Source of the DNA: an uncultured Acidimicrobiales bacterium | GTDB lineage: Bacteria; Actinomycetota; Acidimicrobiia; Acidimicrobiales; Poriferisodalaceae | NCBI GenBank assembly: GCA_905477545.1 | Contig: CAJQGN010000121.1 | Coordinates: 1 to 37,251, forward strand | DNA length: 37,251 nt | Direction of reading: 5' to 3' | Shown here: piece after piece, positions 2,551 through 33,283 of the stretch | How the letters are laid out: the number at the start of each line of letters is the position of its first letter | Position numbering within the stretch: the stretch's first letter is position 1 | The notes under the pieces: model-generated | Seen by the model: the letters and a program-made list of their open reading frames with translations, nothing else | Told to the model about the DNA's origin: nothing | Databases searched by the model: none | Translations under genes and position numbers: made by a program

Positions 2551-2620
2551 AGAAATTCTTCTTTGTGGGTTCTGAGAGATACTTAGGTTGCCATAGACAG
2601 CGATCAGATGCACCGTCGCC

Positions 2621-2626
2621 TACGGT
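2621..2626 (+). promoter_or_regulatory. -10 box of a probable leaderless promoter (LLM gene)
   Basis: TACGGT followed by 7 nt and the ATG at 2634. It supports 2634 rather than the longer upstream frame as the real start. Confidence 0.5.
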
Positions 2627-2633
2627 TATAAGT

Positions 2634-3488
2634 ATGACGACAGATATTAAAATTGGTTTGTTCTCGATAAACACCGACCACCTCGCAGGTCCCGAAAATA
2701 TAGCGAAGGTTGCCGTAGCTGCTGAGGAAGCAGGTTTTGAGTCAGTTTGGACTGCTGAGCATGTAGTTTTGCCAGACCCTCAAGTTGCACCTTCACCGCT
2801 TCCACCCGAGGCAAACTTATTAGACCCAACCGTTGCTCTTGCATATATTTCGGCCGTAACGAAGACAATAAAACTGGGTACAGGAATAATAATATTGCCG
2901 CAAAGGAACCCTCTAGTGCTTGCAAAAGAGTTGGCGAGCTTGGATGTGCTCTCTGCAGGCCGTCTTACCTTTGGAGTGGGTGTTGGCTATCTAGGACCTG
3001 AGTTTGACGCTTTAGGAATTCCCATGAAGGACCGAGGTCCCCGAAGTGTCGAGTACATCGAAGCAATGAGATCTATCTGGAATGACCCTGAGCCCTCATA
3101 TAGCGGAAAGTTCGTTTCATTTTCTGACGTAAAAGCGAACCCACGACCTCACCAAAAAATGGGTCCACCGGTTGTCATGGGAGGCCATTCAAAACCTGCG
3201 TGGCGGAGGTCTGTAACACACAGCCAAGGTTGGTATGGATTTGCTCTTAACGCTGAACAAACAAAACAAAACATAGAAGGGCTAGTTGAGGCGGCTAGTC
3301 GTCACTCTCGACCCGAGGAGCTAGGAAGTTTGGAAATCACAGTGACGCCAAGAATGCGACCAGGTGTAGAAATGATTGAAGCTTTCAGTGAATTAGGAGT
3401 CGATCGTCTAGTTTTGCTTTCTGGCGCCAAAAATGTTGATGAGAGCCTTGCGTTTATCGAACATATTCATGGAAGTTTGTTGAGCTGA
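2634..3488 (+). CDS. LLM-class F420-dependent oxidoreductase
   Basis: A 284-residue TIM-barrel oxidoreductase of the luciferase-like class. Visible hallmarks are the N-terminal strand MTTDIKIGLFS, AEEAGFESVWTAEHV, the conserved LDVLSAGRLTFGVGVG segment, and GPEFDALGIPMKDRG, typical of the subfamily related to Rv2161c that uses reduced F420. The family performs hydride transfers or oxygenations on small hydrophobic substrates. The start was placed at 2634 because the family begins there and a -10 box lies just upstream; the in-frame upstream codons overlap the divergent gene region. The next gene, a fused CoA-transferase, starts 11 nt downstream, so the pair is probably one operon acting on the same CoA-linked substrate. 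Confidence 0.85.
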   Translation: MTTDIKIGLFSINTDHLAGPENIAKVAVAAEEAGFESVWTAEHVVLPDPQVAPSPLPPEANLLDPTVALAYISAVTKTIKLGTGIIILPQRNPLVLAKELASLDVLSAGRLTFGVGVGYLGPEFDALGIPMKDRGPRSVEYIEAMRSIWNDPEPSYSGKFVSFSDVKANPRPHQKMGPPVVMGGHSKPAWRRSVTHSQGWYGFALNAEQTKQNIEGLVEAASRHSRPEELGSLEITVTPRMRPGVEMIEAFSELGVDRLVLLSGAKNVDESLAFIEHIHGSLLS

Positions 3489-3499
3489 CCGGAGAAATT

Positions 3500-5947
3500 A
3501 TGCAACCGCTTGAGGGAATTCGAGTAGTAGAACTAGCGCAAGGGATAGCGGGCCCATACGCCGGGAAACTTCTTGCCGGATACGGAGCTGACGTGATAAA
3601 AGTCGAACCTCCTCAAGGAGATAGAGCACGTTATCTCGGCCCGTGGAATGGTGTTGAAAACGTCGAAACTGGCGCCGTGCACTTGCACCTAAACACTAAT
3701 AAACGTTCTGTGATTGGTGCTTCAACGGACGAACACGTGATGAAGTTAATCGCCGGAGCTGACATAGTTATTCAGTCTGAACCGAGTCCAGATCCAAGTG
3801 AACTTCGAAAGAAATACCCATCACTGGTAGTAGTAAGTGTTACTTCGTTTGGGCTTACGGGTCCATTGGCTCAATACTTGGGTGAAGAAATTGTTCATTA
3901 TGCCTATGGGGGCCCTATGTCCGCAAGTGGTGACCCAACTCGTGCCCCTCTAAAAATGGGTGGAGACCTCGGTCAGTACCAATGTGGCTCTATGGCAGCT
4001 GTTTCTGCTCTGAGCGCTTTGACCATAGCGGAGAAGTCGGGTCAAGGAGTTCATGTTGATTTAAGTAACATAGAAACCCAAATAACATCGATAGATCGCA
4101 GAGCAGCTTATCTGGTTTACGCTTCATATCGAAATGAGCACGTAGCGAGGGAAGGCGGATACCGAGTATCGCCATTTCCCATGGGTTGTCGGCCTGCGTT
4201 AGATGGGCACGTACAAGTGAGCACTCTTGTAAATTGGATCCCTCGAATGTTGGCTACCATCGAAGATCCGGAAATGGAAGAATTATTTGATGATCCAATG
4301 TGGCTGTTTAATGAAGAACATCCAGAGCTAGCGGACACGCGTTTAGTTATGTGGACGCTAACGAAAAATCGGCAACAGGCGATGGAAGAGGCTCAAGCTA
4401 GGTCATGGCCTGTTACTGCGGTTAATAAACCAGTTGATTTGTTAAAGGATCCGCATTTTAAACAACGGGAGTTTTTTGAAACTACCGAGCATCCAGTAGC
4501 AGGTGAAATCATGTTACCTGGTGCCCCAATACGTATAGAAGATGGATGGAAGACACTGCGCCCGGCTCCATTATTGGGAGAACATACGGCGGAATTGTTG
4601 AAAGAGCCATCTCGAAAAAAAAAGTCGAGAAAAAATTCGGAGCAAGAGCTACCGCTTCAAGACATCAGAGTGCTCGATATGACGGTTGTATGGTCAGGCC
4701 CTTATGTAACACAGATTCTTGGTGACCTTGGAGCTGATGTTATTAGAGTAGATAACCCTTGGATTTTTCCAACTGTAACTCGCGGACTACTGCCTCGTCC
4801 GCCTGCCGAGATAATAAAAGATGTCGGTGGAATTTTTGGAGGTTACCCAGATGCTGATCCAGGTAACAGGCCATGGAACAGAGTCGGACTTTTCAATGCT
4901 CATGCACGGAATAAGAAAAGCATCACTATTGATCTCCGGAAGGATCTGGGGCGGAAAGCGTTTTTCGAACTTGTAGGAAAATGCGACGTAATGATTGAGA
5001 ATAACTCAGTTGATTTACTTGACCATTTAGAAATCGGGTGGGAGGAGATACAAGCAGTTAACCCTCGCCTCATACTCGTTCGTATGCCGGCAGTAGGAAT
5101 AGAAGGTCCATATCGAGACTATCTAGGATTCGGAGTTAATTTCGAGGCGCTTTGCGGGTTGGGATCTCTTCGCGGTTATGCGGATTCTGACTTGAGCGAA
5201 AATGATGGCGTTTATCACATGGACGCCGCCTCAGGATCGGCTGGCGTTTTAGCTACCCTCCTAGCTCTAAGGAAACGTGACAAAACGGGGATAGGGGAAA
5301 TGATCGAGCTTTCCCAGTGTGAAAACATGCTTAACCACATTGGTGAATTTTTGATAGATGCAGCGCGAACTGGTAGCGAACATGAAGCCATTGGCAATCG
5401 CCATCGCGTGCACGCTCCTCAAGGGTGCTACCAGTGCGAAGGTCTAGACAAGTGGATAGTTCTTTCGATCACTACTGATAAACAATGGCAGTCTTTGTGC
5501 GCCCTTATGGACACTGCGGATCTGGCGAATGATAAAGAGTTACAGTCAGTAGAAGGTCGTCAGAAACGTCACGATGAGCTTGACGACAGAATCGGGGCTT
5601 GGGTGCAAACCCTAGATGCAGTTGATCTATTTCATAAGCTCCAGTCAAATGGGATACCAGCTGCGCCGGTTCTAAACGAATTAGAAGCACTAGATGACTC
5701 TCATTTACGTGCTCGAGGCATGTTCGCTCCAAACGGAAACTTAGATACAGGTACGCATGACTATCCAACTCACGTTTGGAGGTGGGATGGTCCAGATATG
5801 GCCTATGGTCCGCTACCAGTGCTTGGCGAAAACAACAAAGATATTTATCAAAACTTACTAGGCATGAATGAAGAGGAATATTTGGCAATGGAATTAGACG
5901 GCCATATCAGCGAAGACTATCTGATGCCGGATGGCTCAGCTCAATAG
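3500..5947 (+). CDS. Tandem-fused class III (CaiB/BaiF) CoA-transferase, both halves apparently active
   Basis: An 815-residue fusion of two CaiB/BaiF domains (about 1-365 and 384-800) joined by a lysine-rich linker (371-383). Each half opens with the family hallmark: LEGIRVVELAQGIAGPYAGK, then LQDIRVLDMTVVWSGPYVT. Class III enzymes move CoA between carboxylic acids through an aspartyl-CoA intermediate. The candidate Asp is present in both halves, Asp156 in GGDLGQYQCG and Asp575 in YHMDAASGSAG. Normal family members are about 400 residues and form interlocked dimers, so the fusion may fold as an intramolecular pair. GGAGAA 3 nt before the ATG is the likely ribosome binding site. It is one of three such fusions in this window and follows an LLM gene. 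Confidence 0.88.
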   Translation: MQPLEGIRVVELAQGIAGPYAGKLLAGYGADVIKVEPPQGDRARYLGPWNGVENVETGAVHLHLNTNKRSVIGASTDEHVMKLIAGADIVIQSEPSPDPSELRKKYPSLVVVSVTSFGLTGPLAQYLGEEIVHYAYGGPMSASGDPTRAPLKMGGDLGQYQCGSMAAVSALSALTIAEKSGQGVHVDLSNIETQITSIDRRAAYLVYASYRNEHVAREGGYRVSPFPMGCRPALDGHVQVSTLVNWIPRMLATIEDPEMEELFDDPMWLFNEEHPELADTRLVMWTLTKNRQQAMEEAQARSWPVTAVNKPVDLLKDPHFKQREFFETTEHPVAGEIMLPGAPIRIEDGWKTLRPAPLLGEHTAELLKEPSRKKKSRKNSEQELPLQDIRVLDMTVVWSGPYVTQILGDLGADVIRVDNPWIFPTVTRGLLPRPPAEIIKDVGGIFGGYPDADPGNRPWNRVGLFNAHARNKKSITIDLRKDLGRKAFFELVGKCDVMIENNSVDLLDHLEIGWEEIQAVNPRLILVRMPAVGIEGPYRDYLGFGVNFEALCGLGSLRGYADSDLSENDGVYHMDAASGSAGVLATLLALRKRDKTGIGEMIELSQCENMLNHIGEFLIDAARTGSEHEAIGNRHRVHAPQGCYQCEGLDKWIVLSITTDKQWQSLCALMDTADLANDKELQSVEGRQKRHDELDDRIGAWVQTLDAVDLFHKLQSNGIPAAPVLNELEALDDSHLRARGMFAPNGNLDTGTHDYPTHVWRWDGPDMAYGPLPVLGENNKDIYQNLLGMNEEEYLAMELDGHISEDYLMPDGSAQ

Positions 5948-5964
5948 CTAATGGCGTTTATGTG

Positions 5965-6573
5965 TTAGGGACGATCTAGATTAAAGTGGTCTCTGGTTGT
6001 TGCATACTCTGAACCAGAAAGACGGCCTAATGCATCCAATTCCTGCGCGTTTACCTTCGTTCCATCAAGTACTTTTTCGTCAATATGGAAGGCTATAACT
6101 TCGCCAAAGGTAACAACATGTCGAGTGGGTTCCTCCCCGAGTAGAACCTCGCGGATAGCACGGCATTCGAGTACAGCTTTAGCTTCAATTACGCCGGGTG
6201 CATCAACTGATCCAAATAACTTTGCGGTCAAACCAGCGATAGCAAACTCATCGATTTCAGGGCTAAGATTTTCTGCTGTTTTGTTCATGGCTACAGATAG
6301 CTCATGGTCAACCAGGTTTGCTGTGAATACTCCCGACTCTCGGATGTTAGCAAGACTGTCTTTCACCTGGTTATCTATAACTCCAGTTGAAAAAATCAGA
6401 ACAGGAGGGTTTGAAGCAACGGCATTAAAGAAAGAGTACGGTGCCAGATTGTTGACTCCATCGCTACTTCTACTTCCTATCCACCCAATTGGCCTAGGAA
6501 TAATCAGTCCTGTAGTCAATTTGTATCGTTCTGTTGGATTTAGGTCGTCGACCAAGAAAGTAGTGCGTGCCAT
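5965..6573 (-). CDS. Flavin reductase-like FMN-binding split-barrel protein
   Basis: A 202-residue protein of the flavin reductase-like/DIM6-NTAB family. The characteristic stretch is GLIIPRPIGWIGSRSSDG, then NLAPYSFFNAVASNPPV, which forms the FMN-binding split barrel. Members reduce flavins for partner monooxygenases or act as flavoprotein oxidoreductases. The ATG at 6573 is preferred over an in-frame TTG two codons earlier. It converges on the CoA-transferase gene (17-nt gap) and is divergent from the MFS transporter gene. No intrinsic terminator is seen between the convergent genes. A link to the flavin/F420 enzymes nearby is reasonable but inferred. Confidence 0.85.
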   Translation of the reverse strand: MARTTFLVDDLNPTERYKLTTGLIIPRPIGWIGSRSSDGVNNLAPYSFFNAVASNPPVLIFSTGVIDNQVKDSLANIRESGVFTANLVDHELSVAMNKTAENLSPEIDEFAIAGLTAKLFGSVDAPGVIEAKAVLECRAIREVLLGEEPTRHVVTFGEVIAFHIDEKVLDGTKVNAQELDALGRLSGSEYATTRDHFNLDRP

Positions 6574-6730: not shown

Positions 6731-7945
6731 ATGGTTCACTCCGGGTATGCGCGACGCTGGCTCATGTTGGGATCCCTGTGGAGTCTGTACGCAGTCTTTG
6801 GTCTAGTAGCTGGCTCGTTAGCGCCTCTGCTAGAGCGTATCCGAGTTGAATTGGATATGTCCCGCAGCGCGATGGGCGCTGCGTTAGCGGCATGGCCCTT
6901 CGTTTATTTATTTGTTTCAATCAAAGCTGGGCGTGTTTTGGACCGGATTGGTTTGCGCGCCGGGCTCGGTATCGGAATTATTTCTATTGTTGCTTCAGGA
7001 TTCCTTCGCGCATGCGCTCAGGGAAGCATTAGCCTTTGGTTCGCTGTAGCGATTTTTGGGGTTGGTGGGCCGTTTATTTCTATCGGTGCCCCGAAGCTTG
7101 TTGCCGAATGGTTTGGTAAAGAGGAACGTGGCAGAGCAGTAGGTATTTATAGTACTGCGGCACCTACTGGAGCAATGATTGCTTTGGTGCTAGCGGATCC
7201 ACTTCGGGTCGCATTGGGCGGCTGGCGCCCTGTTCTGGCTGTATTCGCGACAATGGGAATAATTGTGGGAGCAGTGTGGTTATGGGTTTCACGCAAACCA
7301 TCTCCCAGACAAGTGGCCTTGGAGAGTCACCTTCCGACCAGTGAACTGCTTAAGGATCGAACAGTGCAACTGGTCTTGCTACTTGCATTTGGCTCATTTT
7401 TTTTCAGCCATAGCATGGGCGGATGGATGCCTGACATGCTCCAACATGTTGGTTGGAGCGAAAGAGGATCATCGTGGCTTGCAGCGGTTGGTGTCGCGTT
7501 TGGCATTCTCAGTGCATTGTGCATCCCGGGAAGAGTTTCAGAAAAGAATAGACCGAAAGCGCTGGCTGCACTTTACCTAATGGTTGCGATAGCTATTTGG
7601 GCCTTAGCAACAGAAATCAGGATCGCTCATTTGGCAGCAGTGCCGTTAATCGGTGTAGCGCGTGTCACCTATGTCCCATTAGCGATGCTAATACTTATGT
7701 CTGCTCCGAAAGTCAGTACAAAAACTATAGGTGCTGCCGGAGGCCTGTTTTTCACTGCGGGCGAAGTCGGAGGAGTGAGTGGCCCTTGGATTACCGGAGT
7801 CGCTCGTGATGCGGCTTCGAATTTCACTTTAGCAATTGGAATGCTTTCGGGTTTGGCGATTGTTTTGAGCGTCTTGGCGATTTCAACAGGTAAACGCAGA
7901 TTATTGTCTAACTATGTTGAATCAGTTTCGAATACTGGACCTTAG
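6731..7945 (+). CDS. MFS transporter
   Basis: A 404-residue, highly hydrophobic protein with about 12 membrane segments. The loop between segments 2 and 3 reads AGRVLDRIGLRAG, the conserved major facilitator motif. The overall look (short N-terminus, Pro/Gly-rich helices, AEWFGKEERGRAVGIYSTAAP after segment 4) resembles the CynX/NimT or monocarboxylate-type branches, which move small organic anions. It is the first gene of a rightward operon; its end overlaps the following fused CoA-transferase gene by 32 nt. Import of the acid that the transferase converts to a CoA ester is the simplest reading, but substrate and direction are inferred. Confidence 0.85.
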   Translation: MVHSGYARRWLMLGSLWSLYAVFGLVAGSLAPLLERIRVELDMSRSAMGAALAAWPFVYLFVSIKAGRVLDRIGLRAGLGIGIISIVASGFLRACAQGSISLWFAVAIFGVGGPFISIGAPKLVAEWFGKEERGRAVGIYSTAAPTGAMIALVLADPLRVALGGWRPVLAVFATMGIIVGAVWLWVSRKPSPRQVALESHLPTSELLKDRTVQLVLLLAFGSFFFSHSMGGWMPDMLQHVGWSERGSSWLAAVGVAFGILSALCIPGRVSEKNRPKALAALYLMVAIAIWALATEIRIAHLAAVPLIGVARVTYVPLAMLILMSAPKVSTKTIGAAGGLFFTAGEVGGVSGPWITGVARDAASNFTLAIGMLSGLAIVLSVLAISTGKRRLLSNYVESVSNTGP

Positions 7946-10295
7946 CGATCACCGCGGTGCGATGGCAGCGAATATTTTAGCGACGCTAGGTGCTGAAATA
8001 GTTCTAGTTGAAGGACCTGATGGGCGGGGGAGAAATTCATTTCCTCAAGGACCTGATGGAGTGTCGCTGGATTGGTGGTCTATGCGTCGTGGGGCTAAAA
8101 GCGTAGTCATAGAAAATCGAGCAGAGTTAATGAAGCTAGTCGCTGGAGCAGATGTTTTAATTGAATCACCTGACGTGGGTACGGGATTAAACGTCAAGGA
8201 ACTAAGAGCTGTGAATCCGAGTTTAGTTCATGCCACTATTACAGGCTATGGCAGCACTGGTCCTAAAAAAAATTGGGTAGCGACAGATTTGACTATTGCT
8301 GCTTCAGCATGTGCAGCTGCCGTTACAGGTGATGCTGATCGGGCTCCGCTTCGAATAAGTACTCCTCAAAGTTATTTGCATGCAGGGCAGCAAGCGGCTG
8401 CGGGTATAGCCGTAGCTTTGTACGAACGATCTAAATCAGGCTTAGGTCAACATGTTGATGTTTCAGCTCAACAGTCTCTTATGCAGGCTGCGTTTCCGGC
8501 GAATATGACTGGGCCGCATGGGCAAGAAGATGCAGGTAGAACTTCTGGTGGCATTCTAGTTATGAATTACCATTTACAATTTGTGTATCCGGCATCTGAT
8601 GGTCACGTATCAATCACTCTTTTGTTCGGTGATACCATTGGCATATTTACGTCTCGACTCATGACTTGGGTATACGAAGAAGGATTTTGTAGCCAGGAGC
8701 TGCGTGACTTGGATTGGGTGAATTTTGGACTACGACTTTTTACCGAACCTGACACAGCTCCTGCTCAAATGGAAGAAGCTAAACTCGCAATAGCCAGCTT
8801 CACTGCCACTCGCACGAAGGCAAGCTTGTTCGAAGAATCTCAAGAGCGAGAGGTGCTGTTAGCTCCAGTGTCAACTCCGGGGTCTCTGGTCGAGCTTAAT
8901 CATTTCAAACAACGAAAATTTTGGGATGTTTTAGACGACCCATCTTGGGGGACTGTTGTTGCTCCTGGCAATTGGGTTCAACCCAGTAGCGGAAGGCTCC
9001 CAATGCGCGGCCTACCTCCAGAACTTGGAGCCGACACTAAACAGCTGATGTCGGAAAATCGCATGCCCTATGCACCAGAAGCTTCTGCCAAAGAGCGCAG
9101 GCTTCCTTTTGAGGGACTGAAAGTTTTAGACACAACGTGGGTTTACGCCGGACCCTTCACAACAAGGTTGTTAGCTGATTTCGGAGCGACTGTAATAAAA
9201 GTCGAAGGACCAAACCGATTTGACCTAACACGCGGGGGTACTAGAGGCCTCAACGATGATCCGGGTATTGATGCATCGATTGCTTATGGGACCCTAAATG
9301 CTGGGAAAAAGAGTTTGACGCTCGACCTCAATACTGAGGAAGGTCAGAGAGTGTTTCGTGATTTGGCTAATTGGGCAGACATTCTAGTCGAATCGTACAC
9401 GCCCGGAACCTTGGACAACTGGGGCCTTGGCTATGACAGCCTTTGTGAAACGAACCCATTATTGATCATGCTGAGCACAAGCCTTATGGGGCAAACTGGG
9501 CCGCTCTCAACCTTCGCAGGTTTCGGAAATCTTGCCGGCGCAATCACAGGTTTTTATGAAATGACGGGTTGGACTGATAGGGATCCGGCTGGTCCCTTTT
9601 TGGCCTACACCGACTATGTGGTTCCCGGATTTAAAGTCGCTCTGTTAGTGGCTGCATTAGAGAAAAGAAAAATTGATGGTAAAGGACAATATCTAGACTT
9701 TTCACAAGCAGAAGCAGCGGTTCACTTCCTGACTTCCGCTGTGCTGGAGTCAACAGTTAATGGCACGCATGTTTCTAGGCTCGGTAATTCTGATCGTTTT
9801 ATTTCCCCGCATGGGATGTACCGAACGCATGGAACAGATAGCTGGGTTGCAATTGTGTGCGAAACTGATGCTCAATGGATCGAGCTAAGCGCGATAATAG
9901 AGTGTCCTGCTATGCAAAATTTAAGAGTGAACGATCGGTTCGAAAGAAGTGCAGAGATAGATGCCTTAATAGAAGCCTGGACGTCGGCTAAAGAAGCCGA
10001 AGATATTGAGCTACTTTTTCAATCAGTTGGCATTCCTTGCCAACGCGTGATTAACAGCAAAGCTGCATTCGCAGATCCTCAGTTGCAGCACCGAAATCAC
10101 TGGCTAGAGGTAGAACATCCGGTCCATAAAAAAATGACGGTAGAAGCTCCTCGCTTTCAGTTCTCTCATACCCCACATAAGGTAACGAGATCTGGGCCAT
10201 CGCTCGGGGAGCACAATGATTTTGTGTTACGTTCAATTCTTGGCTACAGCGATGATGAAATTATTAACTTAGCGATTTCAGGCGCTATTGGATGA
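7914..10295 (+). CDS. Tandem-fused class III CoA-transferase with a catalytically dead N-terminal half
   Basis: A 793-residue fusion of two CaiB/BaiF domains (about 1-385 and 397-793). The N-terminal half keeps the fold motifs (FRILDLSDHRGAMAAN; GSTGPKKNW; KSGLGQHVDVS), but where the catalytic Asp should be it reads STPQSYLHAG (149-158), with no acidic residue. The C-terminal half opens with FEGLKVLDTTWVYAGPF and has a candidate catalytic Asp567 in AYTDYVVPG, 22 residues before the conserved Gly of IDGKG. One active and one structural half are therefore predicted. It overlaps the MFS gene upstream by 32 nt and the methyltransferase gene downstream by 4 nt, consistent with tight co-translation. 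Confidence 0.87.
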   Translation: MLNQFRILDLSDHRGAMAANILATLGAEIVLVEGPDGRGRNSFPQGPDGVSLDWWSMRRGAKSVVIENRAELMKLVAGADVLIESPDVGTGLNVKELRAVNPSLVHATITGYGSTGPKKNWVATDLTIAASACAAAVTGDADRAPLRISTPQSYLHAGQQAAAGIAVALYERSKSGLGQHVDVSAQQSLMQAAFPANMTGPHGQEDAGRTSGGILVMNYHLQFVYPASDGHVSITLLFGDTIGIFTSRLMTWVYEEGFCSQELRDLDWVNFGLRLFTEPDTAPAQMEEAKLAIASFTATRTKASLFEESQEREVLLAPVSTPGSLVELNHFKQRKFWDVLDDPSWGTVVAPGNWVQPSSGRLPMRGLPPELGADTKQLMSENRMPYAPEASAKERRLPFEGLKVLDTTWVYAGPFTTRLLADFGATVIKVEGPNRFDLTRGGTRGLNDDPGIDASIAYGTLNAGKKSLTLDLNTEEGQRVFRDLANWADILVESYTPGTLDNWGLGYDSLCETNPLLIMLSTSLMGQTGPLSTFAGFGNLAGAITGFYEMTGWTDRDPAGPFLAYTDYVVPGFKVALLVAALEKRKIDGKGQYLDFSQAEAAVHFLTSAVLESTVNGTHVSRLGNSDRFISPHGMYRTHGTDSWVAIVCETDAQWIELSAIIECPAMQNLRVNDRFERSAEIDALIEAWTSAKEAEDIELLFQSVGIPCQRVINSKAAFADPQLQHRNHWLEVEHPVHKKMTVEAPRFQFSHTPHKVTRSGPSLGEHNDFVLRSILGYSDDEIINLAISGAIG

Positions 10296-13272: not shown

Positions 13273-14130
13273 CTAGGAAGTGAGGGCGCTCAAGGCAGTC
13301 TCATATTCCGAGCGGCTCAACCCGTGGGGATAAACACAAACTAGGTCTATTCCTGCTTGTTCATATTCTGTTAATTGTTCTCGGGCTCGATCTAAATCAT
13401 TTACGTTCATGCATGTTCCTCTTACAATTTCTTCGGTTGAAGTGAGACCTTGGCGAACGAAGTGCTGATGGTAATTCGCCATAGCGTCGTAATTTACAGC
13501 ATCTGTTTCCAGTGCTTGGGAAGGGCTTAAGCGAACATATAGAACTGTTTGTGGCGTTCTACCGTTACTTCTGCCAGCTTCTTGAGCTACTTTCACGGTT
13601 TCAGCAGCATGTTGTGGTGTCAGCCAATTGAGAACAACTCCGTCAGATTTTGCTGAACCTAGTTCAACCATTTTAGGTCCGAGTGCTCCTACGAGCACCT
13701 CAAATCCCTTCCCGAAGCTGACTCCGAATCTAGATTGTCCCATAAGTTCATCAAGAGCGATTTCCATCCATCGAAGCGGAGACGAAGGAAAGGGTATGCC
13801 TAGACGAGATGCGGCTTCTCTATGTGAGACGCCGACTCCTAGAGTAAATCGACCTTCTGATTGCTCATTTAAAGTAGCTGCTGATAGCGCTAAATGCGGC
13901 AGAGATCTAAAAGGGCCGGCAGCGACTCCGACCGCACCTTTCACTGAGTTAGTTGCGGCGAACATCGCAGCGAGACTTATGTAGGGACTGCGACCACTGA
14001 GCCCGCCGCTTGGTTGGTGGTTCCCGGTTTCAGGTAGATAAATGCTCGCGTAACCATTGTCTTCGGCAAATTTGCCGAGGCGTACAACTTCATCAACGGG
14101 TAAATCTCGCATACAAATACCTAAGTCCAT
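13273..14130 (-). CDS. LLM-class F420-dependent oxidoreductase
   Basis: A luciferase-like TIM-barrel enzyme, 285 residues from the ATG at 14130 (MDLGICMRDLPVDE), the position where family members normally begin; ATGs at 14142 and 14157 are alternatives. Recognisable parts are FAEDNGYASIYLPET, the SEGRFTLGVGVSH motif that follows the flavin/F420-binding bulge, and PQHAAETVKVAQEAG. The presumed cofactor is F420. It converges with the SDR gene and is divergent from the operon starting at 14269. It differs clearly from the LLM gene at 2634, so they are not recent duplicates. Confidence 0.82.
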   Translation of the reverse strand: MDLGICMRDLPVDEVVRLGKFAEDNGYASIYLPETGNHQPSGGLSGRSPYISLAAMFAATNSVKGAVGVAAGPFRSLPHLALSAATLNEQSEGRFTLGVGVSHREAASRLGIPFPSSPLRWMEIALDELMGQSRFGVSFGKGFEVLVGALGPKMVELGSAKSDGVVLNWLTPQHAAETVKVAQEAGRSNGRTPQTVLYVRLSPSQALETDAVNYDAMANYHQHFVRQGLTSTEEIVRGTCMNVNDLDRAREQLTEYEQAGIDLVCVYPHGLSRSEYETALSALTS

Positions 14131-14255
14131 AAGACTTACCATGCCACACCAGCTCATGTCTGAGCAGCCAGTTAAGTAAATCAGCTCCTCGAGGCGCCAT
14201 GCGTTCGGTCCTTAAACAAAGATGAGATAGGGCGCTCCGAGTCAAATAGCGCTGG

Positions 14256-15128: not shown

Positions 15129-16295
15129 ATGGGAAAGAAGCGAAAAGCGAAGATTCCTCAAAGTGTCGGTGAGCTTACGGCTGATTATTTCACTAACGTA
15201 ATCGGTTTGAAATATGGCGGATCCGTTCAAGATGTTGAAACCGAGGTAATTGGGGAAGGCGTGGGTTTCTTAGGAGAGTTGCATCGATGCAGCTTGAAAT
15301 GGTCAGACGGAAGCAGGGGCCCTGATTCGGTCATTGTGAAATTTCCGTCGATGATTAAGAAAAATAGGGCACTGGGTGAAGTGCTAGGTTCCTACGAACG
15401 AGAAATTTATGTTTACAAGGAGATGGTTGATCAATTAGGAGTCGTGACTCCTGAGTTCATTTACGGTGATTTGGACCCCCACCCAGCGCCGTGGCTAGAA
15501 ACGTTCGTCCTTTATCTCTGCGAGAAGCTTCCGGTTGGTGGCGTTAGCTGGGTATTTAATAGAGTTCTGTTTATTGGAGCACGTAGCCCTCGCAAGTATC
15601 TGCTCATGATCGAAGATATCCCTGATGCTCGGGCACCCTCGCAGGCAGTCGGAGGGTCAATGGACGACGCTCGAGCGGGTCTGGACATACTTGCGAAGTT
15701 TCATGCCCATAATTGGATGGACCGAACCAAGATTGAAAATCCAATCATCTGGAGTGTCGGCCGTAGCCCAAAACTCGTGCAAGCTAGCTATCGTCGAAAT
15801 CGTGAAGCTTTTGTAGCTCGTTTTGGAGAAGCTATTGGCCCGGACGTAATAGCAAAAATGGATGAAATCCAAGCTAATTTTTCTGACTATAACGCCAGTT
15901 TGGATAAATCTCCATGGACATTGATACATGGAGATTATCGACTTGATAATTTGCTGTTTCGGCCAGAGGGAAAGACTGTCTTGTTGGATTGGCAGGCTCT
16001 GGCCTGGGGAAGAGCAGGCTGGGAAGTAACGTACTTTATAACCACAGCACTCGAGCCTCACCATAAAGAAGAAGAAGAAATGATGCTCAGGCAATACCAC
16101 AAAGTGCTTGTTGAATCAGGCGTTGCCGATTACGACTACAGCGATTTGTTGAAAGATGTCGCAACATCGAAAATCATGCTTGCTCATCGAATGGTTGCAG
16201 CAGATGACCTTTTAGATACCGCCAAAGATAACGGCGATATAGCTTTAGTGGATCTTTTAGTCACACGAGTTGTCGGGTGGATTGACCCTGTTTAA
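15129..16295 (+). CDS. Phosphotransferase, ecdysteroid kinase-like (APH/CHK superfamily)
   Basis: A 388-residue protein kinase-fold small-molecule phosphotransferase. The candidate ATP-lysine lies in DSVIVKFPS (Lys71), the catalytic loop is IHGDYRLDNLLF with Asp269 and Asn274, and the metal-binding motif is LLDWQ with Asp287. This loop with LDNLLF and LDWQ is typical of the ecdysteroid kinase-like/CHK group often found in actinobacterial steroid and lipid catabolic regions. The substrate is likely a hydroxylated lipid-like molecule, but this is inference. Last gene of the 14269 operon; its TAA shares four bases with the TAA of the convergent CoA-transferase gene. Confidence 0.8.
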   Translation: MGKKRKAKIPQSVGELTADYFTNVIGLKYGGSVQDVETEVIGEGVGFLGELHRCSLKWSDGSRGPDSVIVKFPSMIKKNRALGEVLGSYEREIYVYKEMVDQLGVVTPEFIYGDLDPHPAPWLETFVLYLCEKLPVGGVSWVFNRVLFIGARSPRKYLLMIEDIPDARAPSQAVGGSMDDARAGLDILAKFHAHNWMDRTKIENPIIWSVGRSPKLVQASYRRNREAFVARFGEAIGPDVIAKMDEIQANFSDYNASLDKSPWTLIHGDYRLDNLLFRPEGKTVLLDWQALAWGRAGWEVTYFITTALEPHHKEEEEMMLRQYHKVLVESGVADYDYSDLLKDVATSKIMLAHRMVAADDLLDTAKDNGDIALVDLLVTRVVGWIDPV

Positions 16296-18631
16296 CTGAA
16301 GAGATCACTTCCGATTCCTTCAGCTACCTCATCAAAACTCAAATGGCCTAGCTCAGTCCAGATATCAAAGTTGTGTTCCCCAAGATAAGCCGGAGATAAC
16401 AGATCAGTGGCAGGTCGCTTCCCGTCCCATAGAGCGGGAAACGTGTCTACAACACGTTGCCCAAAGTTGTCATGAGTAGCGGGTCGCCAGAACTGTCGGG
16501 CTTTGTGTTGTGGGTCTTGTTCAATGAGCTCTGATGCATTTTGTACTTTCCCAGCAGGAACGCCGATCTCTTGGAGCATTGACATTCCGCTATCAGAAGT
16601 TTGGTGCAATGCCCACGTGGCGACAGAATTTTCGATTTGAGTGCGATTTAATCGTCGATCATCTTCTGTGGCTAATGTCAGCGTTTTGAGATTTGGATCA
16701 CTAATTATGCGCTGAAGACTTAACCACTGAGAGTCGTTAGTCGCTGTTATAGCTAGGTATCCATCGGTAGTTGCAAAAACATTATTCGGTACATGGTCCT
16801 GAAGCCCATCTTGATTCCCATTTGGTTGAGTAACAAAGCTGTTTGATAAATAATCTAGGGCAGCTGGCCCAATAGAGTATGTGCCGATTTCGTGTTGTGA
16901 CATATCTATTTTTTGACCCTTGCCGGTTTTTTCGCGTGCGTGGAGTGCTGCCACGGTACTAAGAGCAGCGCTGAACCCCGCAAGGTGATCGTTGAGTGAG
17001 AAGCCCGATCCGATAGCTTCTTCATCGGAAAAATTGGTTAGATGAGTGATGCCTGAAAGAGCGTGAATTGTTGGAGCGTAGGAGATAACGTGTTTCCAGG
17101 GGCCATCTTGGCCACACCCGGACATGGTGACGTAAACCAATTTAGGGTTCCATTGCTGAAGGGTTTCCCAATCAAGACCCCATTTGGCAAGCACTCCGGC
17201 GCTGTAATTTTCGATTAGGATATCGCTTTTTTCGATGATTGGTTTTAAAACTTTAAGAGCTAACTCGTGCTTCATGTTTAGGGTGATGCTTCGCTTGCCA
17301 CGTCCCCACACAAAGTAAAAAGGATGATCTGGGCTGTTTACACCGGTGCTGTTGCCGTCGTTTTGAAGCCGAACCACATCGGCCCCTAACTCAGCAAGCA
17401 TTCGGGTAGCAAAAGGTCCAGCTAGAACCCAAGTTAAATCCAACACTCGAATCCCTTGGAGTGGCTTCCTTTTTTTAAGGTTCTCTACTTTTCTAGCAGT
17501 CTGAGACCAACGAGTAACTATCTCTTCAATCGGTGTATCGATAGAAGCTGGGGGTGAGGGATCAATAGCGGGAGTATCGCTAAATCGAACTAATCGAGAA
17601 GGTTGCTTTACTGTTGACCCGATCACCTTTTTGAAAAAATTTCGATGGGCGAATTGTGGACTTTCGCAAGCATCGGCGATGTTCAACACACCGCCGAAAG
17701 CAACATGATTGTTTTGTGCATCTTCCCAAAGCTCTTTTGCTTCGCGTGTTTTAACCCAATCTCGAATTGTGTCCATGGCATCATCTACATTGACGAGAAT
17801 CTGATCAACATCTTTGCCGAGCCATCGATTGCCGGCAGTGAAGCCATCATCGACCATCATCTGAAACACGTTTTCCGGCACAGGTGTAGGGGTAATCATG
17901 ACGTGTCCGGAAGAACAGGGAGCAAGGTCGTAAAGTCTAAGCCAATGAAGAGCCCCCTGCCTTTCGGCTAGTTTCGGTAACGGTAAAATATCGTCGAAAA
18001 GCCATTGCATCATTATGTTTTCAATGGACCCAGAGACTGTTTCGTGAGCCGAAACGTCAACAAGCTGACCTAGACCATCGCGTCGTGCCGCGAAAACCCC
18101 TGCGATTCCGCATAATGCAGCCATAAAACCTGAGTAGTTATATGCCTGTCGTCCCCAAAGGTTTAACGGGCGATGTGGTAGCCCTGTCACAGACAAGAAC
18201 CCGCCGAGCGCAGCAGAAGTTAAATCTGAACTTACCCAGTGAGACCTTGGGCCAGTTCGTCCGAAAGGGGTCAGTGATACCTGGACTATTTTTGGATTAT
18301 CTTTTGCGATATCGGCATGATCGATTGACAAAGATCCTAAAAAACCGGGAGGAAATGTTTCGATTATAAGATCAGCCGATGTGGTTAAAGTTTTGTAGGC
18401 GTTGATGCCGTTGGTACTTGTGAAATCGATCAGGTGCCGTTCTTTCCCGCCGTCATACCACCAATCCAATACTCCGCCACGCTCGGAGTCAGATTTGCTT
18501 TTTATAGGCTTCCCGGGTGAGCCCCTCGTTACACGAACCACATCGGCGCCGAATTCGGTGAGTAATTTTGTGCCAAAACGTCCGGAGTCGTCGGTTGCAT
18601 CAACAACTCGGAGTCCTCGAAGAGCGGTCAT
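16292..18631 (-). CDS. Tandem-fused class III CoA-transferase with a catalytically dead N-terminal half
   Basis: A 779-residue double CaiB/BaiF protein with domains at about 1-355 and 389-779. The N-terminal half opens with LRGLRVVDATDDSGRFGTK and keeps GRTGPRSHW and DGLGQLVDVS, but the catalytic position lies in LWGRQAYNYSG (158-168), with no Asp. The C-terminal half opens with LQGIRVLDLTWVLAGPFATR and has a candidate catalytic Asp548 in SLNDHLAG, 22 residues before the conserved Gly of KTGKGQ. It shares the one-active-half plan with the gene at 7914. It is transcribed leftwards and alone; no convincing ribosome binding site or -10 box was found. Confidence 0.87.
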   Translation of the reverse strand: MTALRGLRVVDATDDSGRFGTKLLTEFGADVVRVTRGSPGKPIKSKSDSERGGVLDWWYDGGKERHLIDFTSTNGINAYKTLTTSADLIIETFPPGFLGSLSIDHADIAKDNPKIVQVSLTPFGRTGPRSHWVSSDLTSAALGGFLSVTGLPHRPLNLWGRQAYNYSGFMAALCGIAGVFAARRDGLGQLVDVSAHETVSGSIENIMMQWLFDDILPLPKLAERQGALHWLRLYDLAPCSSGHVMITPTPVPENVFQMMVDDGFTAGNRWLGKDVDQILVNVDDAMDTIRDWVKTREAKELWEDAQNNHVAFGGVLNIADACESPQFAHRNFFKKVIGSTVKQPSRLVRFSDTPAIDPSPPASIDTPIEEIVTRWSQTARKVENLKKRKPLQGIRVLDLTWVLAGPFATRMLAELGADVVRLQNDGNSTGVNSPDHPFYFVWGRGKRSITLNMKHELALKVLKPIIEKSDILIENYSAGVLAKWGLDWETLQQWNPKLVYVTMSGCGQDGPWKHVISYAPTIHALSGITHLTNFSDEEAIGSGFSLNDHLAGFSAALSTVAALHAREKTGKGQKIDMSQHEIGTYSIGPAALDYLSNSFVTQPNGNQDGLQDHVPNNVFATTDGYLAITATNDSQWLSLQRIISDPNLKTLTLATEDDRRLNRTQIENSVATWALHQTSDSGMSMLQEIGVPAGKVQNASELIEQDPQHKARQFWRPATHDNFGQRVVDTFPALWDGKRPATDLLSPAYLGEHNFDIWTELGHLSFDEVAEGIGSDLFS

Positions 18632-18785
18632 GTAATTTCAATTCTTTCACGGGAATTAGATAGCTGGCCATAGAGCCAGCGGTCACGGAGTTTGGTGCCA
18701 TTAAGCATTATTGTAGGAGTTGCGTTGATTAGAGATAATTTTTACGGCCGTGTCGTACATAAGAAAATTGAGAGATTTTTGGAAT

Positions 18786-19907
18786 TTAGTTTGTAGCGCA
18801 AACAGCTGCGAGACTCGCGAGAGCAGTCCCACGACGTGGCTGTCGGATTTGATGTCTGTCTAATCCGTTCGTTACATAGCCAAATGACAAACCGCTTTGA
18901 GGATCAGCCCAAGCCAATTGCCCACCGACACCATTGTGTCCGAAACCTGCTGGCGATATAGACCTGCCTAGGCCTCTTCGATTAGTCATTCCATCGTTTC
19001 CCGCGATAATTACACCAAGCGCTCGATGAGCTGGAACACCCATTGGATCTTTTAAATTATTTCGCACAGTGCCTACCGCACTCTCAAGCATAACTGGCTC
19101 CCATAAATCTTCGGGGTTGTGAAGCAGCCCTTGATAAAACATCGCTAGGTCCTGAGCGCGCCCAAAACCACCGCCTCCAGGAACTCCTATTTCTTTGGTT
19201 TCGGGGCGATTGAAATTGATAATCGTATTGTCATTCACTTCAGAAGGAGGTAATTCTCGCACTCCAAATGCAGCTTCAAGCTCGTCAGGTGTTGCATCTC
19301 CAGGTGCTAACTGTAAGTCGACAATACCTTTCTGGTCCGTTAACGGTATTCCAAGAATTCTAGGTATACCTAAGGGGGAAGATACGCGCTGGTGAATTTC
19401 TTCACGATAATCATTACCTGTTACTTCATTGATGATTTCCGCAAGGACCCAATGCGCCGATGTTGCATGATATTCGAACTTGGTATCTGGTTCCCAGTTG
19501 AGTGTCCATTCTGCCATTCGTTTGCGACGGCTTGAAGAAGTTGTCCAGTGCCGAGGCCCCATTGGAGCATGAGGAAACCCGGATGTGTGAAGTAGAACTT
19601 GCTCGAGGGTTATCTTGTCTTTTGCGTTTTCTTCGAATTCCGTCAAATAAGAAGCGATAGTTGAATCCAGGGAAACTAAACCTTCAGTCAGTAGTTGCCA
19701 CATAGTTGCTGCCACGAATGGTTTCGTAGCGGAAAAAAAACAGTACCGACTATTTGAGCTGGCGTTACCAATGGTTTCGTTGAGGATTAGTTCGCCGCGA
19801 AACCCAAGAGCAACTTGGCAGCTGGGAAGAAGGCCGCTGTCAACATCTTGGCGACATCGGTCGACAAGTGCTTCAACATTGTTTTGGTTAATTAAGCTAT
19901 TTGGCAC
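18786..19907 (-). CDS. Beta-lactamase-family serine hydrolase (class C-like esterase)
   Basis: A 373-residue protein of the serine beta-lactamase/DD-peptidase fold, probably an esterase. The SxxK motif is SATK (Ser59-Lys62) in CFFSATKPFVAATMWQL, the tyrosine motif is Tyr146 in EYHATSAHWVLAEII, and the third motif is HNGVGG, as in EstB-type esterases. There is no signal peptide, which argues against a penicillin-binding role in the wall. The start is a GTG at 19907, since no in-frame ATG lies near. The gene reads away from the inverted repeat and candidate RNA promoter at 19940-19985, so it could share control with them. Confidence 0.85.
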   Translation of the reverse strand: MPNSLINQNNVEALVDRCRQDVDSGLLPSCQVALGFRGELILNETIGNASSNSRYCFFSATKPFVAATMWQLLTEGLVSLDSTIASYLTEFEENAKDKITLEQVLLHTSGFPHAPMGPRHWTTSSSRRKRMAEWTLNWEPDTKFEYHATSAHWVLAEIINEVTGNDYREEIHQRVSSPLGIPRILGIPLTDQKGIVDLQLAPGDATPDELEAAFGVRELPPSEVNDNTIINFNRPETKEIGVPGGGGFGRAQDLAMFYQGLLHNPEDLWEPVMLESAVGTVRNNLKDPMGVPAHRALGVIIAGNDGMTNRRGLGRSISPAGFGHNGVGGQLAWADPQSGLSFGYVTNGLDRHQIRQPRRGTALASLAAVCATN

Positions 19908-19939
19908 ATCAAAGGCATATCACTCTCAGCACAAACGTG

Positions 19940-19977
19940 CACCCTGCTTACTAAACTTGCGTTTAGTAAGCAGGGTG
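19940..19977. repeat. Perfect 17-bp inverted repeat with a 4-nt centre; candidate operator
   Basis: The left arm CACCCTGCTTACTAAAC (19940-19956) and right arm GTTTAGTAAGCAGGGTG (19961-19977) are exact reverse complements around TTGC. There is no T-run on either side, so it is unlikely to be an intrinsic terminator. It lies between the divergent serine hydrolase gene and the candidate RNA, and overlaps the -35 and spacer of the promoter proposed at 19957-19985. The core ACTAAAC/GTTTAGT resembles operators of TetR-type regulators in general form. No regulator gene is seen nearby. Confidence 0.7.
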
Positions 19978-19985
19978 ACTAAGGT
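19957..19985 (+). promoter_or_regulatory. Candidate promoter of the structured RNA
   Basis: TTGCGT (19957-19962), a 17-nt spacer and TAAGGT (19980-19985) give a sigma-70-type promoter with transcription expected from about 19992. The -10 hexamer equals those at 163-168 and 12310-12315. The inverted repeat at 19940-19977 overlaps it, so a bound protein would block it. Confidence 0.45.
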
Positions 19986-19991
19986 AGGGCT

Positions 19992-20193
19992 TGGCGTTTG
20001 GTAATTGAGTCCGAGTCATCCAGGTGCGGCTCGGCTTTTGATCCAGACATCGGCTGTTGGCATTGACTTCTGCGGAGGAGGTGTCGACGGTTAGGGGGGT
20101 ACCCAAATCTCGCATGCGCGAGGGTTACCAATACCCCAACGCACGGACAGCGATGGACGGGGCGCCTGAAATAGGCGCTCCGTCCGGCTTTTT
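19992..20193 (+). ncRNA. Candidate structured non-coding RNA of unknown family (about 200 nt)
   Basis: This stretch has no convincing coding frame, is clearly more GC-rich than its flanks, starts after a plausible promoter and ends in an intrinsic terminator. By eye it folds into a closing helix and three hairpins. Closing helix: 19994-19997 with 20139-20142, then TTGGTAATT (19998-20006) with GGTTACCAA (20123-20131). Hairpins: CCGAG/CTCGG (20011-20015 with 20030-20034), GACTTCT with AGGA and GTC (20065-20085), and CTCGC/GCGAG (20109-20113 with 20118-20122). It lacks the signatures I know for SRP RNA, RNase P, tmRNA, or the TPP and cobalamin riboswitches. A 6S-like rod or an unnamed RNA remain possible. 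I see no antiterminator strand, so a free RNA is favoured over a riboswitch of the downstream LLM gene. Confidence 0.5.
20155..20193 (+). terminator. Intrinsic terminator of the candidate RNA
   Basis: A 13-bp stem (GGACGGGGCGCCT at 20155-20167 with AGGCGCTCCGTCC at 20173-20185, one G-T pair), a 5-nt loop, then GGC and five T. It lies 72 bases before the LLM start at 20266. Confidence 0.85.
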
Positions 20194-20265
20194 GAATTCT
20201 TCTTGGTGATCCCGAGAATAAACTTTGGAGTATTGTCGCTTAAATAATCTCTGACTGGTGGACAA

Positions 20266-21213
20266 ATGAAAGAACTCAGCATGACAAAAATCGAGTTTGG
20301 CCTATCTATGCGCCGATCTGATCGAATAGCTGAACAAGCGAAAGCAATAGAGAGCCTGGGATATGACTATGCAACAACAGGGGAGCATGTTTTTTTCCAC
20401 GTACCTACCGCTAACGCATTCATTTCGTTAGCAGTAGCGGCAGGGGCCACTACTCACCTCAAATTAATGTCTACAATAACTCTTTTGCCGTTATACCCAG
20501 CAGCGCTGGCTGCGAAACAAGTAGCGGCGTTAGATGTTGCGTCGGGAGGCCGCTTTCATTTAGGAGTAGGAGTAGGTGGAGAAATACCGAAAGAATTCGA
20601 GGCGTGTGGTGTTCCGGTCAATGAACGTGGAGTCAGGACGAACGAAGCGTTAGAGGTTATGAGACGGTTATTTACCGAAGACGATGTGCATTTTGATGGA
20701 AAGTTCAACACACTATCTGGCGTTACTCTCGCCCCGAAGCCGGTTCAAAAAACTGGACCACCGATATGGGTTTCTGGTAGAAAAGAAGCGGCTTGGCGGC
20801 GGACGGCTAAGTATGGAACTGGTTGGCTTCCCTACATGTACACCCCTGAGATGTTAGAAAATTCGAATGAACAAATAAGCAAATATCGACATGATGAGGG
20901 CAACGAGGTGCCTGTCGATCCGGGCTTATTTATTTTCTTTTGCTGTCACGAAGATAATGAAAAAGCAATCGAATATGCCAATGAACGACTTTCAAAGCAA
21001 TACAACCAAGACTTCACAAAGATGATCGACAAATATGCGATTGCGGGTGATCCGGACAGATGTGTCGCTCGTTTAAAGGAATATGTAGAAGCAGGCGCAA
21101 GAACTATTATTCTGAGCGCAGCTTCACCTATGCATTACATAGAAGAAGCGGAACGTTTCATGGCAAAAGAAGTGCTGCCAAGATTTAAAGGTTTGGATCA
21201 GATGTCTAAATGA
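20266..21213 (+). CDS. LLM-class F420-dependent oxidoreductase
   Basis: A 315-residue luciferase-like enzyme (310 if the ATG at 20281 is used). GGTGGA lies 4 nt before the first ATG and mildly favours 20266. Typical features are KIEFGLSMR, ESLGYDYATTGEHV, LDVASGGRFHLGVGVGG and KEFEACGVPVNERGVR, which place it in the same F420-type subfamily as the LLM gene at 2634. It would reduce or oxidise a substrate with F420 in the cytoplasm. Its stop overlaps the ATG of the following acyl-CoA ligase by 4 nt, so the two formed an operon. The candidate RNA and its terminator lie directly upstream, which probably isolates it from readthrough. Confidence 0.85.
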   Translation: MKELSMTKIEFGLSMRRSDRIAEQAKAIESLGYDYATTGEHVFFHVPTANAFISLAVAAGATTHLKLMSTITLLPLYPAALAAKQVAALDVASGGRFHLGVGVGGEIPKEFEACGVPVNERGVRTNEALEVMRRLFTEDDVHFDGKFNTLSGVTLAPKPVQKTGPPIWVSGRKEAAWRRTAKYGTGWLPYMYTPEMLENSNEQISKYRHDEGNEVPVDPGLFIFFCCHEDNEKAIEYANERLSKQYNQDFTKMIDKYAIAGDPDRCVARLKEYVEAGARTIILSAASPMHYIEEAERFMAKEVLPRFKGLDQMSK

Positions 21214-32030: not shown

Positions 32031-32131
32031 CACGCTGACATTGTTTGTGTTGATAAGTGTCGAAGGTTCTGTCCTTTAAATATTTGGCTACGTTCGCTAT
32101 GTGGTGCTTCTTAAAATGATTGGGTAAAAGC

Positions 32132-33283
32132 ATGAAGACTGGAGTTTTCCTGTTCGGCGGTGTTGAAATGGATGATGCTGGAGCCGGACCACCTCTAGCT
32201 ACGGATCGAAGATACAGCTCCGTTGAAGCCTGGAGAGCTACCGAGCAACTTCTACAAATAGGAGTAGAAGCAGATCGGTTGGGTTTTGATAGCTATTGGC
32301 TTACTGAGCATCACTTTCAGCATGAAGGATATGAAATCATCCCAAACGGGCTGTTGTTTGGAAGCGTCCTTGCAGAAAGAACTCAACAGATTCGAATTGG
32401 AACAATGTTTAATGTGGTCGGTCAATGGCACCCACTGCGCCTAGCTGAAGATTTTTCGGCCATGCATAACATATCCGGGGGTAGGGGTATCTTAGGCATT
32501 GGTAGAGGCACAGTGCCCAGAGAAGCTGAGTCTCTTGGAACGAAAATAGGCTCTTTTGACAACCCAGATGCAATGTCAGCCGACGAATTCAATCGGAAAC
32601 AGTTTGATGAAGCGGTTGAAGTAATTCGTTTAGCTCTGGACAATGAAACGTTTAGTTATCACGGATCCGTGTACGAGTTCCCGCCAGCAGGGATACCTGA
32701 TCGCGGAGGTTTTGTTGAAACTCTTTCGTTAATACCACGCCCTTTATACCCATACGAAATTTGGCAGGCGGTGACTAGCCCACCGACGTTAGACGCTGTT
32801 CCTAAAAAAGGTTATGGGGGTGTTTTTTGGCTTAAGAACTATCGCGTGCTCGCTGAATGGTGGAAACGATTTGGGGATTTGTGGCAGGACGCCAACGGAG
32901 TTGAACTTCATCCAGGCCAGCATAGAAAGCTGGTTGTGAGTGTGTGTATCGAAGATAGCTATGAAGCCGCTGCGGCATCGGTACGACCCGGGCATGATGA
33001 GTTCTGGAAATTTTTAGGACCGTATGGGTGGAGTCGCGGCTATGTGAGCGAAGATAATGAACCGGTTGCAGCTGGTTTAATTCCGACCCTTGAACAGTCT
33101 GTCGACAACCGGACTTGGCTTATTGGAACTGCGGATGACGTTCTTGAAAGCATTGAGGCTTACCGGGAAGAACTTGGGGGTTTAGAAAATTTGGTTATTT
33201 TTCCAAATATGCCTGGAGATGATTATTCTAAAACCACCGAGCAAATTCAGCGATTCGCAGAAGGCATTCTTCCGAATCTCTAG
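32132..33283 (+). CDS. LLM-class flavin-dependent oxidoreductase
   Basis: A 383-residue luciferase-like enzyme, longer than the three F420-type proteins in the window. Features are MKTGVFLFGGVEM, RLGFDSYWLTEHHFQ, the GRGILGIGRGTVPREAESLG segment, and IRLALDNETFSYHG, all closer to bacterial luciferase-like monooxygenases that use FMN. The ATG at 32132 is preferred to an in-frame TTG at 32120. It is transcribed alone to the right and ends just before queF, which reads the other way. The substrate is unknown; a monooxygenase role is likely by family. Confidence 0.82.
   Translation: MKTGVFLFGGVEMDDAGAGPPLATDRRYSSVEAWRATEQLLQIGVEADRLGFDSYWLTEHHFQHEGYEIIPNGLLFGSVLAERTQQIRIGTMFNVVGQWHPLRLAEDFSAMHNISGGRGILGIGRGTVPREAESLGTKIGSFDNPDAMSADEFNRKQFDEAVEVIRLALDNETFSYHGSVYEFPPAGIPDRGGFVETLSLIPRPLYPYEIWQAVTSPPTLDAVPKKGYGGVFWLKNYRVLAEWWKRFGDLWQDANGVELHPGQHRKLVVSVCIEDSYEAAAASVRPGHDEFWKFLGPYGWSRGYVSEDNEPVAAGLIPTLEQSVDNRTWLIGTADDVLESIEAYREELGGLENLVIFPNMPGDDYSKTTEQIQRFAEGILPNL

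Follow-up and report, generated by a model that had tools for sequence, protein, structure and literature searches.

A structured RNA gene of about 200 nucleotides, probably stand-alone, between divergent genes in marine Acidimicrobiales

Gene neighborhood of the RNA

The stretch of DNA analyzed here (37,251 nucleotides, termed the window) derives from an uncultured member of the Acidimicrobiales. The intergenic region at positions 19908-20265 lies between a leftward serine hydrolase gene and a rightward gene for a luciferase-like (LLM) flavin-dependent oxidoreductase, and it carries the RNA gene that is the subject of this analysis. The features of the locus are listed below.

18786..19907, minus strand: divergent neighbor, serine hydrolase of the beta-lactamase family (PF00144, 7e-47)
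19957..19962, plus strand: predicted -35 hexamer TTGCGT, within a conserved, partly palindromic element (core CTAAAYTTGCGTTYAGTAAG); identical at 20/20 homologous loci
19980..19985, plus strand: predicted -10 hexamer TAAGGT (TANNNT), 17 nt after the -35 hexamer
19992..20193, plus strand: structured non-coding RNA with four hairpins (single-copy homologs, covariation, strand-biased folding)
19996..20049, plus strand: hairpin 1, with outer stem 19996-20001/20044-20049 and nested stems (helices 1-3; seven pairs changed on both sides)
20056..20088, plus strand: hairpin 2 (helix 4; 98.9% of cells paired, four pairs changed on both sides)
20094..20137, plus strand: hairpin 3, with a GGGGGG/CCCC base and a variable upper stem (helices 5-6; four upper-stem pairs changed on both sides)
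20138..20154, plus strand: near-invariant linker AACGCACGGACAGCGAT (invariant apart from a single A missing from one sequence)
20155..20185, plus strand: hairpin 4, a terminator-like stem of 13 pairs (helix 8; 100% paired, two pairs changed on both sides)
20266..21213, plus strand: downstream neighbor, LLM oxidoreductase (PF00296, 3e-55)
from 21210, plus strand: AMP-binding enzyme following the LLM gene (PF00501)

The serine hydrolase gene flanks the RNA at all 13 representative loci inspected and on every named contig that is long enough, and the LLM and AMP-binding genes keep their order in RNA carriers at these 13 loci and on the named contigs. The orientation of the RNA is also constant, in that it resides on the same strand as the LLM gene and directly upstream of it at every locus inspected. 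However, the gene order CinA-APH-CoA transferase-hydrolase-LLM-AMP ligase-DUF4015-PRT, which extends over at least eight genes, is common to several genera. Because the neighborhood is syntenic across genera, the fixed site of the RNA beside the LLM gene needs no cis-regulatory explanation, and by itself it is not evidence for one.

The spacer between the hydrolase and CoA-transferase genes measures ~850 bp in other genera (~5206-6053 at locus L068) versus 154 bp in the window's genus (18632-18785). Elsewhere, the 37-kb window encodes a total of four luciferase-like monooxygenases (2565-3488, 13273-14157, 20266-21213, and 32120-33283) and three CoA-transferase III proteins (3500-5947, 7914-10295, and 16292-18631). 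With its amidohydrolase, creatininase, and flavodoxin-like genes, it has the appearance of a flavin- and CoA-dependent catabolic region.

Distribution, conservation, and fold

A whole-genome search detected full-length homologs of the RNA in 21 of the 39 genomes of the window's family, with one copy in each and always at this locus. A covariance model trained on 20 of these 21 homologs recovers full-length copies in the same 21 genomes, and it finds no second copy before any other gene in the family genomes. The carriers comprise at least 21 species in five genera of marine Acidimicrobiales, including MedAcidi-G3. Searches of the order (248 genomes) and the class (395 genomes) revealed no homolog outside the family and returned only weak chance hairpins; matches in other families with E values of 1e-4 to 1e-6, considered as distant homologs, were rejected as chance GC-rich hairpins.

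When 84,980 GTDB species were scanned with an exact gapped motif, 21 loci emerged, 19 of which belong to marine Acidimicrobiales MAGs (MedAcidi-G3, MED-G95, SP160, NAT188, and others). The remaining two (L072 and L082) are chance matches in which the covariance model detects no RNA, and L072 lies inside a coding gene. The phage and viral contigs searched gave no match to the RNA, and a viral origin was rejected. Our literature search found no report of an RNA at the hydrolase/LLM locus and no structured RNA for this abundant group of uncultured ocean bacteria.

Among the four carrier genera g6, g8, g9, and g10, the RNA is 81-89% identical, despite the fact that four-fold degenerate sites of a neighboring gene are only 24-32% identical across these genera and are thus saturated. 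The spacers that flank the RNA are 38-67% identical between genera. The window's genus (g1) has diverged, and its RNA shares 54-60% identity with those of the other carrier genera. About 80 positions of the RNA are invariant, most of them within the structure. Conservation ends at hairpin 4, and the spacer between the RNA and the LLM gene is unconserved.

The RNA stretch of the window folds at -98 kcal/mol (z -4.9), and none of 200 shuffled sequences folds as low. Consensus folding strongly favors the plus strand, at -80 kcal/mol versus -48 kcal/mol for the minus strand. The RNAalifold consensus contains 59 pairs, of which 17 have changes on both sides versus 5.7 in shuffled alignments, a comparison somewhat biased toward structure, since the fold under test came from this very alignment. 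Paired cells amount to 97.0% in the alignment, compared with 93.9% after shuffling and 38-53% when one strand is slid, and there are 34 doubly changed cells versus 7.2 in controls. When changes are placed on the tree, nine double compensatory events are observed versus 1.6 +/- 1.2 expected, and 14 pair-breaking events versus 32.5 +/- 3.7 expected; none of 500 simulations reaches so many of the former or so few of the latter. An R-scape-like per-pair test found no single column pair significant with 20 sequences, a number that affords low power. Overall, the four-hairpin fold is supported by these comparative data. Judged by its single-copy homologs, its covariation, and its strand-biased folding, the stretch from 19992 to 20193 is a real and previously unnamed RNA gene of ~200 nt.

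Several elements of an earlier sequence-only reading can be assessed against the homologs. That reading took the region to be non-coding; indeed, no reading frame stays open throughout all homologs, and the possibility of a coding gene was rejected on this ground. The three internal hairpins it described are borne out by compensatory changes. The window sequence allows a long-range helix proposed to close the structure (19994-20006 with 20123-20142). Across the homologs, however, just 50% of the helix's cells pair, and most of its pairs are exclusive to the window's genus; in the consensus, 19996-20001 instead pairs locally with 20044-20049. Likewise, the idea that a Shine-Dalgarno-like segment (TGCGGAGGAGGTG, 20071-20083) could mimic mRNA leaders or pair with 16S rRNA finds no support: the segment, given as TGCGGAGGAGGTG or GGAGGAGG, is itself paired within the 3' arm of hairpin 2. 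The terminal stem of 13 bp and the T5 tract are present in the window as described (20155-20185 and 20189-20193). However, the T5 tract after hairpin 4 is confined to the window's genus, and the other carrier genera have no long U-run at this place. Thus, the proposal that the RNA has its own terminator stands in canonical form for the window's genus but does not extend to the others. The RNA probably stands alone, with a canonical U-tract terminator in the window's genus only.

The loop region of hairpin 1 contains the invariant sequence CCAGGTGCGG (20020-20029). A GTGCG within this loop could pair with a CGCAC of the linker in 20/20 sequences to give a possible pseudoknot, both sides of which are invariant. 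The G4/C4 base of hairpin 3 is also invariant and hence uninformative for covariation. A pairing between the LLM leader and the hairpin 3 base is possible in the window's genus only, in that CAATACCCCAA (20129-20139) and TTGGAGTATTG (20225-20235) are 91% complementary.

None of the 4227 models in Rfam 15 matches the RNA above its gathering score, and five homologs gave no match even at E values up to 1. This result is in line with the earlier statement that signatures of known families are absent. The genome encodes its RNase P RNA and SRP RNA elsewhere (G000:C187, 242.6 bits, and G000:C2, 77.4 bits, respectively), and no tmRNA was found in the window by ARAGORN or Rfam.

Promoter elements and a sister genus without the RNA

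The promoter TTGCGT-17-TAAGGT named in the sequence-only reading is present exactly, and its spacing and the TANNNT pattern recur in 20/20 homologs. From its position, transcription of the RNA is predicted to start at ~19992. A dyad, CTAAAYTTGCGTTYAG, surrounds TTGCGT-17-TANNNT and is conserved at the 20 aligned loci. In the window, an inverted repeat at 19940-19977, perfect over 17 bp and with a loop of 4 nt (CACCCTGCTTACTAAAC TTGC GTTTAGTAAGCAGGGTG), covers the -35 box. A 6-bp core dyad of this repeat is kept in all carriers, with one variable base in its left half, and the outer arms are peculiar to the window's genus. The inverted repeat looks like an operator for a putative regulator. In six RNA-bearing genomes tested, the 22-nt, partly palindromic promoter element occurs once per genome and at this locus only, and a reading in which it is the operator of a regulon was rejected.

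The sister genus g7 has the same hydrolase/LLM gene pair with a short gap and without the RNA (loci L057-L066). In g7, the promoter-like blocks GGCCTAGCAC and GCGGCTACSGTC nearly abut, and in g6, g8, g9, and g10 the RNA and its promoter reside exactly between the two blocks of the g7 type. Downstream of the RNA, a promoter-like block belonging to the LLM gene, CGGCTACGGTC, is retained in these four genera and in 18 of 20 genomes overall, and it has been lost in the window's genus; the LLM gene of g7 has such a block as well. Of 10 other occurrences of the motif CGGCTACSGTC, five precede an ORF of 300 or more amino acids by no more than 65 nt, compared with a baseline of 7%. Therefore, the LLM block appears promoter-like elsewhere in these sequences as well. 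In a tree of LLM proteins, the RNA carriers group to the exclusion of g7 with weak support (88/45); with this placement, a single gain or a single loss would account for where the RNA occurs.

Taken together, the abutting promoters of g7, the location of the RNA between the two blocks, and the separate block of the LLM gene favor a stand-alone RNA over a riboswitch leader.

Possible functions of the RNA

We propose, with a probability of roughly 60%, that the element is a stand-alone structured RNA gene of ~200 nt that has its own promoter and acts in trans with a protein partner. Transcription would proceed rightwards from a promoter of the sigma-A type that belongs to the RNA and is situated just past the divergent promoter of the hydrolase gene, and the transcript would end at or near hairpin 4. 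Compensatory changes support its folding into the four hairpins. A pseudoknot probably brings together the loop of hairpin 1 (CCAGGTGCGG) and the linker (AACGCACGGACAGCGAT), which would form a working surface. RNAs that bind proteins or ligands typically hold long, near-invariant loops and linkers in a fixed fold, whereas base-pairing sRNAs usually conserve just a short seed. The dense invariant unpaired positions in a fixed fold thus point to a surface for protein or ligand binding more than to a seed for pairing. In trans, the RNA would most likely act as one half of a ribonucleoprotein or as a regulator that sequesters a protein. A factor that recognizes the conserved dyad over the -35 box may govern expression of the RNA.

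An unlikely alternative, which nevertheless accounts for several observations, is that the RNA is the cis-regulatory leader (riboswitch or attenuator) of an LLM-AMP-binding operon, wherein the fold senses a metabolite and hairpin 4 serves as terminator or expression platform. The RNA shares with orphan riboswitch candidates a complex conserved fold, invariant loops as are typical of aptamers, and a same-strand site directly upstream of a metabolic gene at every locus inspected. Moreover, because the U-run after hairpin 4 is limited to the window's genus, read-through into the LLM gene is conceivable elsewhere, and because the LLM block has been lost in the window's genus, the LLM gene there might depend on the promoter of the RNA. 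However, LLM orthologs that are 75-77% identical occur in g7 and work without the RNA, and the LLM promoter-like block downstream of the RNA in g6, g8, g9, and g10 is a feature that sets these loci apart from orphan riboswitch candidates. So too are the single locus per genome, with no second copy before other genes, and the lack of a conserved expression platform. When the LLM leader is added to the fold, most of the RNA structure (74-98% of positions) is kept, and no consistent alternative pairing between RNA and leader emerges. The end of conservation at hairpin 4 and the unconserved spacer beyond it also argue against a leader. A riboswitch reading was in fact adopted at one stage, given that the RNA always precedes the LLM gene, and was demoted in view of the g7 gene pair, the LLM block, and the wide synteny.

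The RNA might instead be a base-pairing sRNA that represses or activates mRNAs in trans through an invariant loop or linker. A single gene with its own promoter and with invariant unpaired segments (CCAGGTGCGG and AACGCACGGACAGCGAT) could serve this purpose, but the ~80 invariant positions, mostly structured, far exceed what a seed needs, and we regard this role as distinctly unlikely.

It is more doubtful still that the RNA binds RNA polymerase (RNAP) as a functional analog of 6S, Ms1, or CoRP in this lineage. Actinobacteria lack classical 6S RNA and carry unrelated RNAP-binding RNAs identified by RIP-seq, namely Ms1 (PMC4191392, PMC9130861), CoRP, and scr0792 (PMC11077062). The 6S model (RF00013) has no match in the window, the RNA, the homologs tested, or the whole genome, which leaves room for such an analog, and the new RNA resembles 6S RNA in being a stand-alone, single-copy gene of ~200 nt. 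The sequence-only reading had raised a 6S-like regulator as one possibility. Yet 6S RNA is a long rod whose central bubble resembles an open promoter, a shape that is absent from the consensus and from 20 single folds, all of which point to four separate hairpins; together with the missing 6S match, this speaks against the suggestion.

Ms1 of Mycobacterium and Streptomyces is about 230-300 nt long, has a 6S-like central bubble, and has an HAD-IB hydrolase gene as its neighbor (PMC4191392, PMC9130861). Its synteny criterion is an HAD-IB hydrolase or phosphoserine phosphatase gene alongside (PMC9130861). The new RNA, like Ms1, is an actinobacterial stand-alone RNA with a conserved promoter that is recognized partly by synteny. 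However, it lacks the bubble and is placed between a beta-lactamase-family hydrolase (PF00144) and an LLM oxidoreductase (PF00296), and no HAD hydrolase was found among the 28 window proteins scanned. CoRP of Corynebacterium is likewise a structured RNA limited to one actinobacterial lineage without an Rfam 6S, but it is 516 nt long, resides between tRNA genes, and was found by RNAP pull-down (PMC11077062), whereas the new RNA has ~200 nt and other neighbors. Absence from g7 and from the rest of the order also distinguishes the RNA from 6S RNA and Ms1, both of which are widely spread.

That the region is a functionless, GC-rich intergenic sequence has virtually no probability, and is refuted by the homologs, by strong conservation where synonymous sites are saturated, and by the compensatory changes seen on the tree.

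A bolder form of the stand-alone reading, offered only tentatively and as something we would not expect to hold in full, is that this new functional RNA family was gained once, by insertion between divergent promoters in one clade of marine Acidimicrobiales, and that it works through a pseudoknotted core, either as the RNA component of a novel RNP or as a new RNAP-binding regulator in place of 6S RNA in this lineage.

The sequence-only reading had anticipated a lineage-specific RNA of ~200 nt with its own promoter and no known family, and conservation, covariation, and synteny support it. With its promoter, boundaries, and fold defined, this structured RNA family is a well-supported addition to what is known of an abundant but uncultured group of ocean bacteria. 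The g7 locus without the RNA offers a clean natural comparison for a regulatory RNA gene that arose, or was lost, between two promoters. If the RNA proves to bind RNAP, it would help to fill the 6S gap in Actinobacteria.
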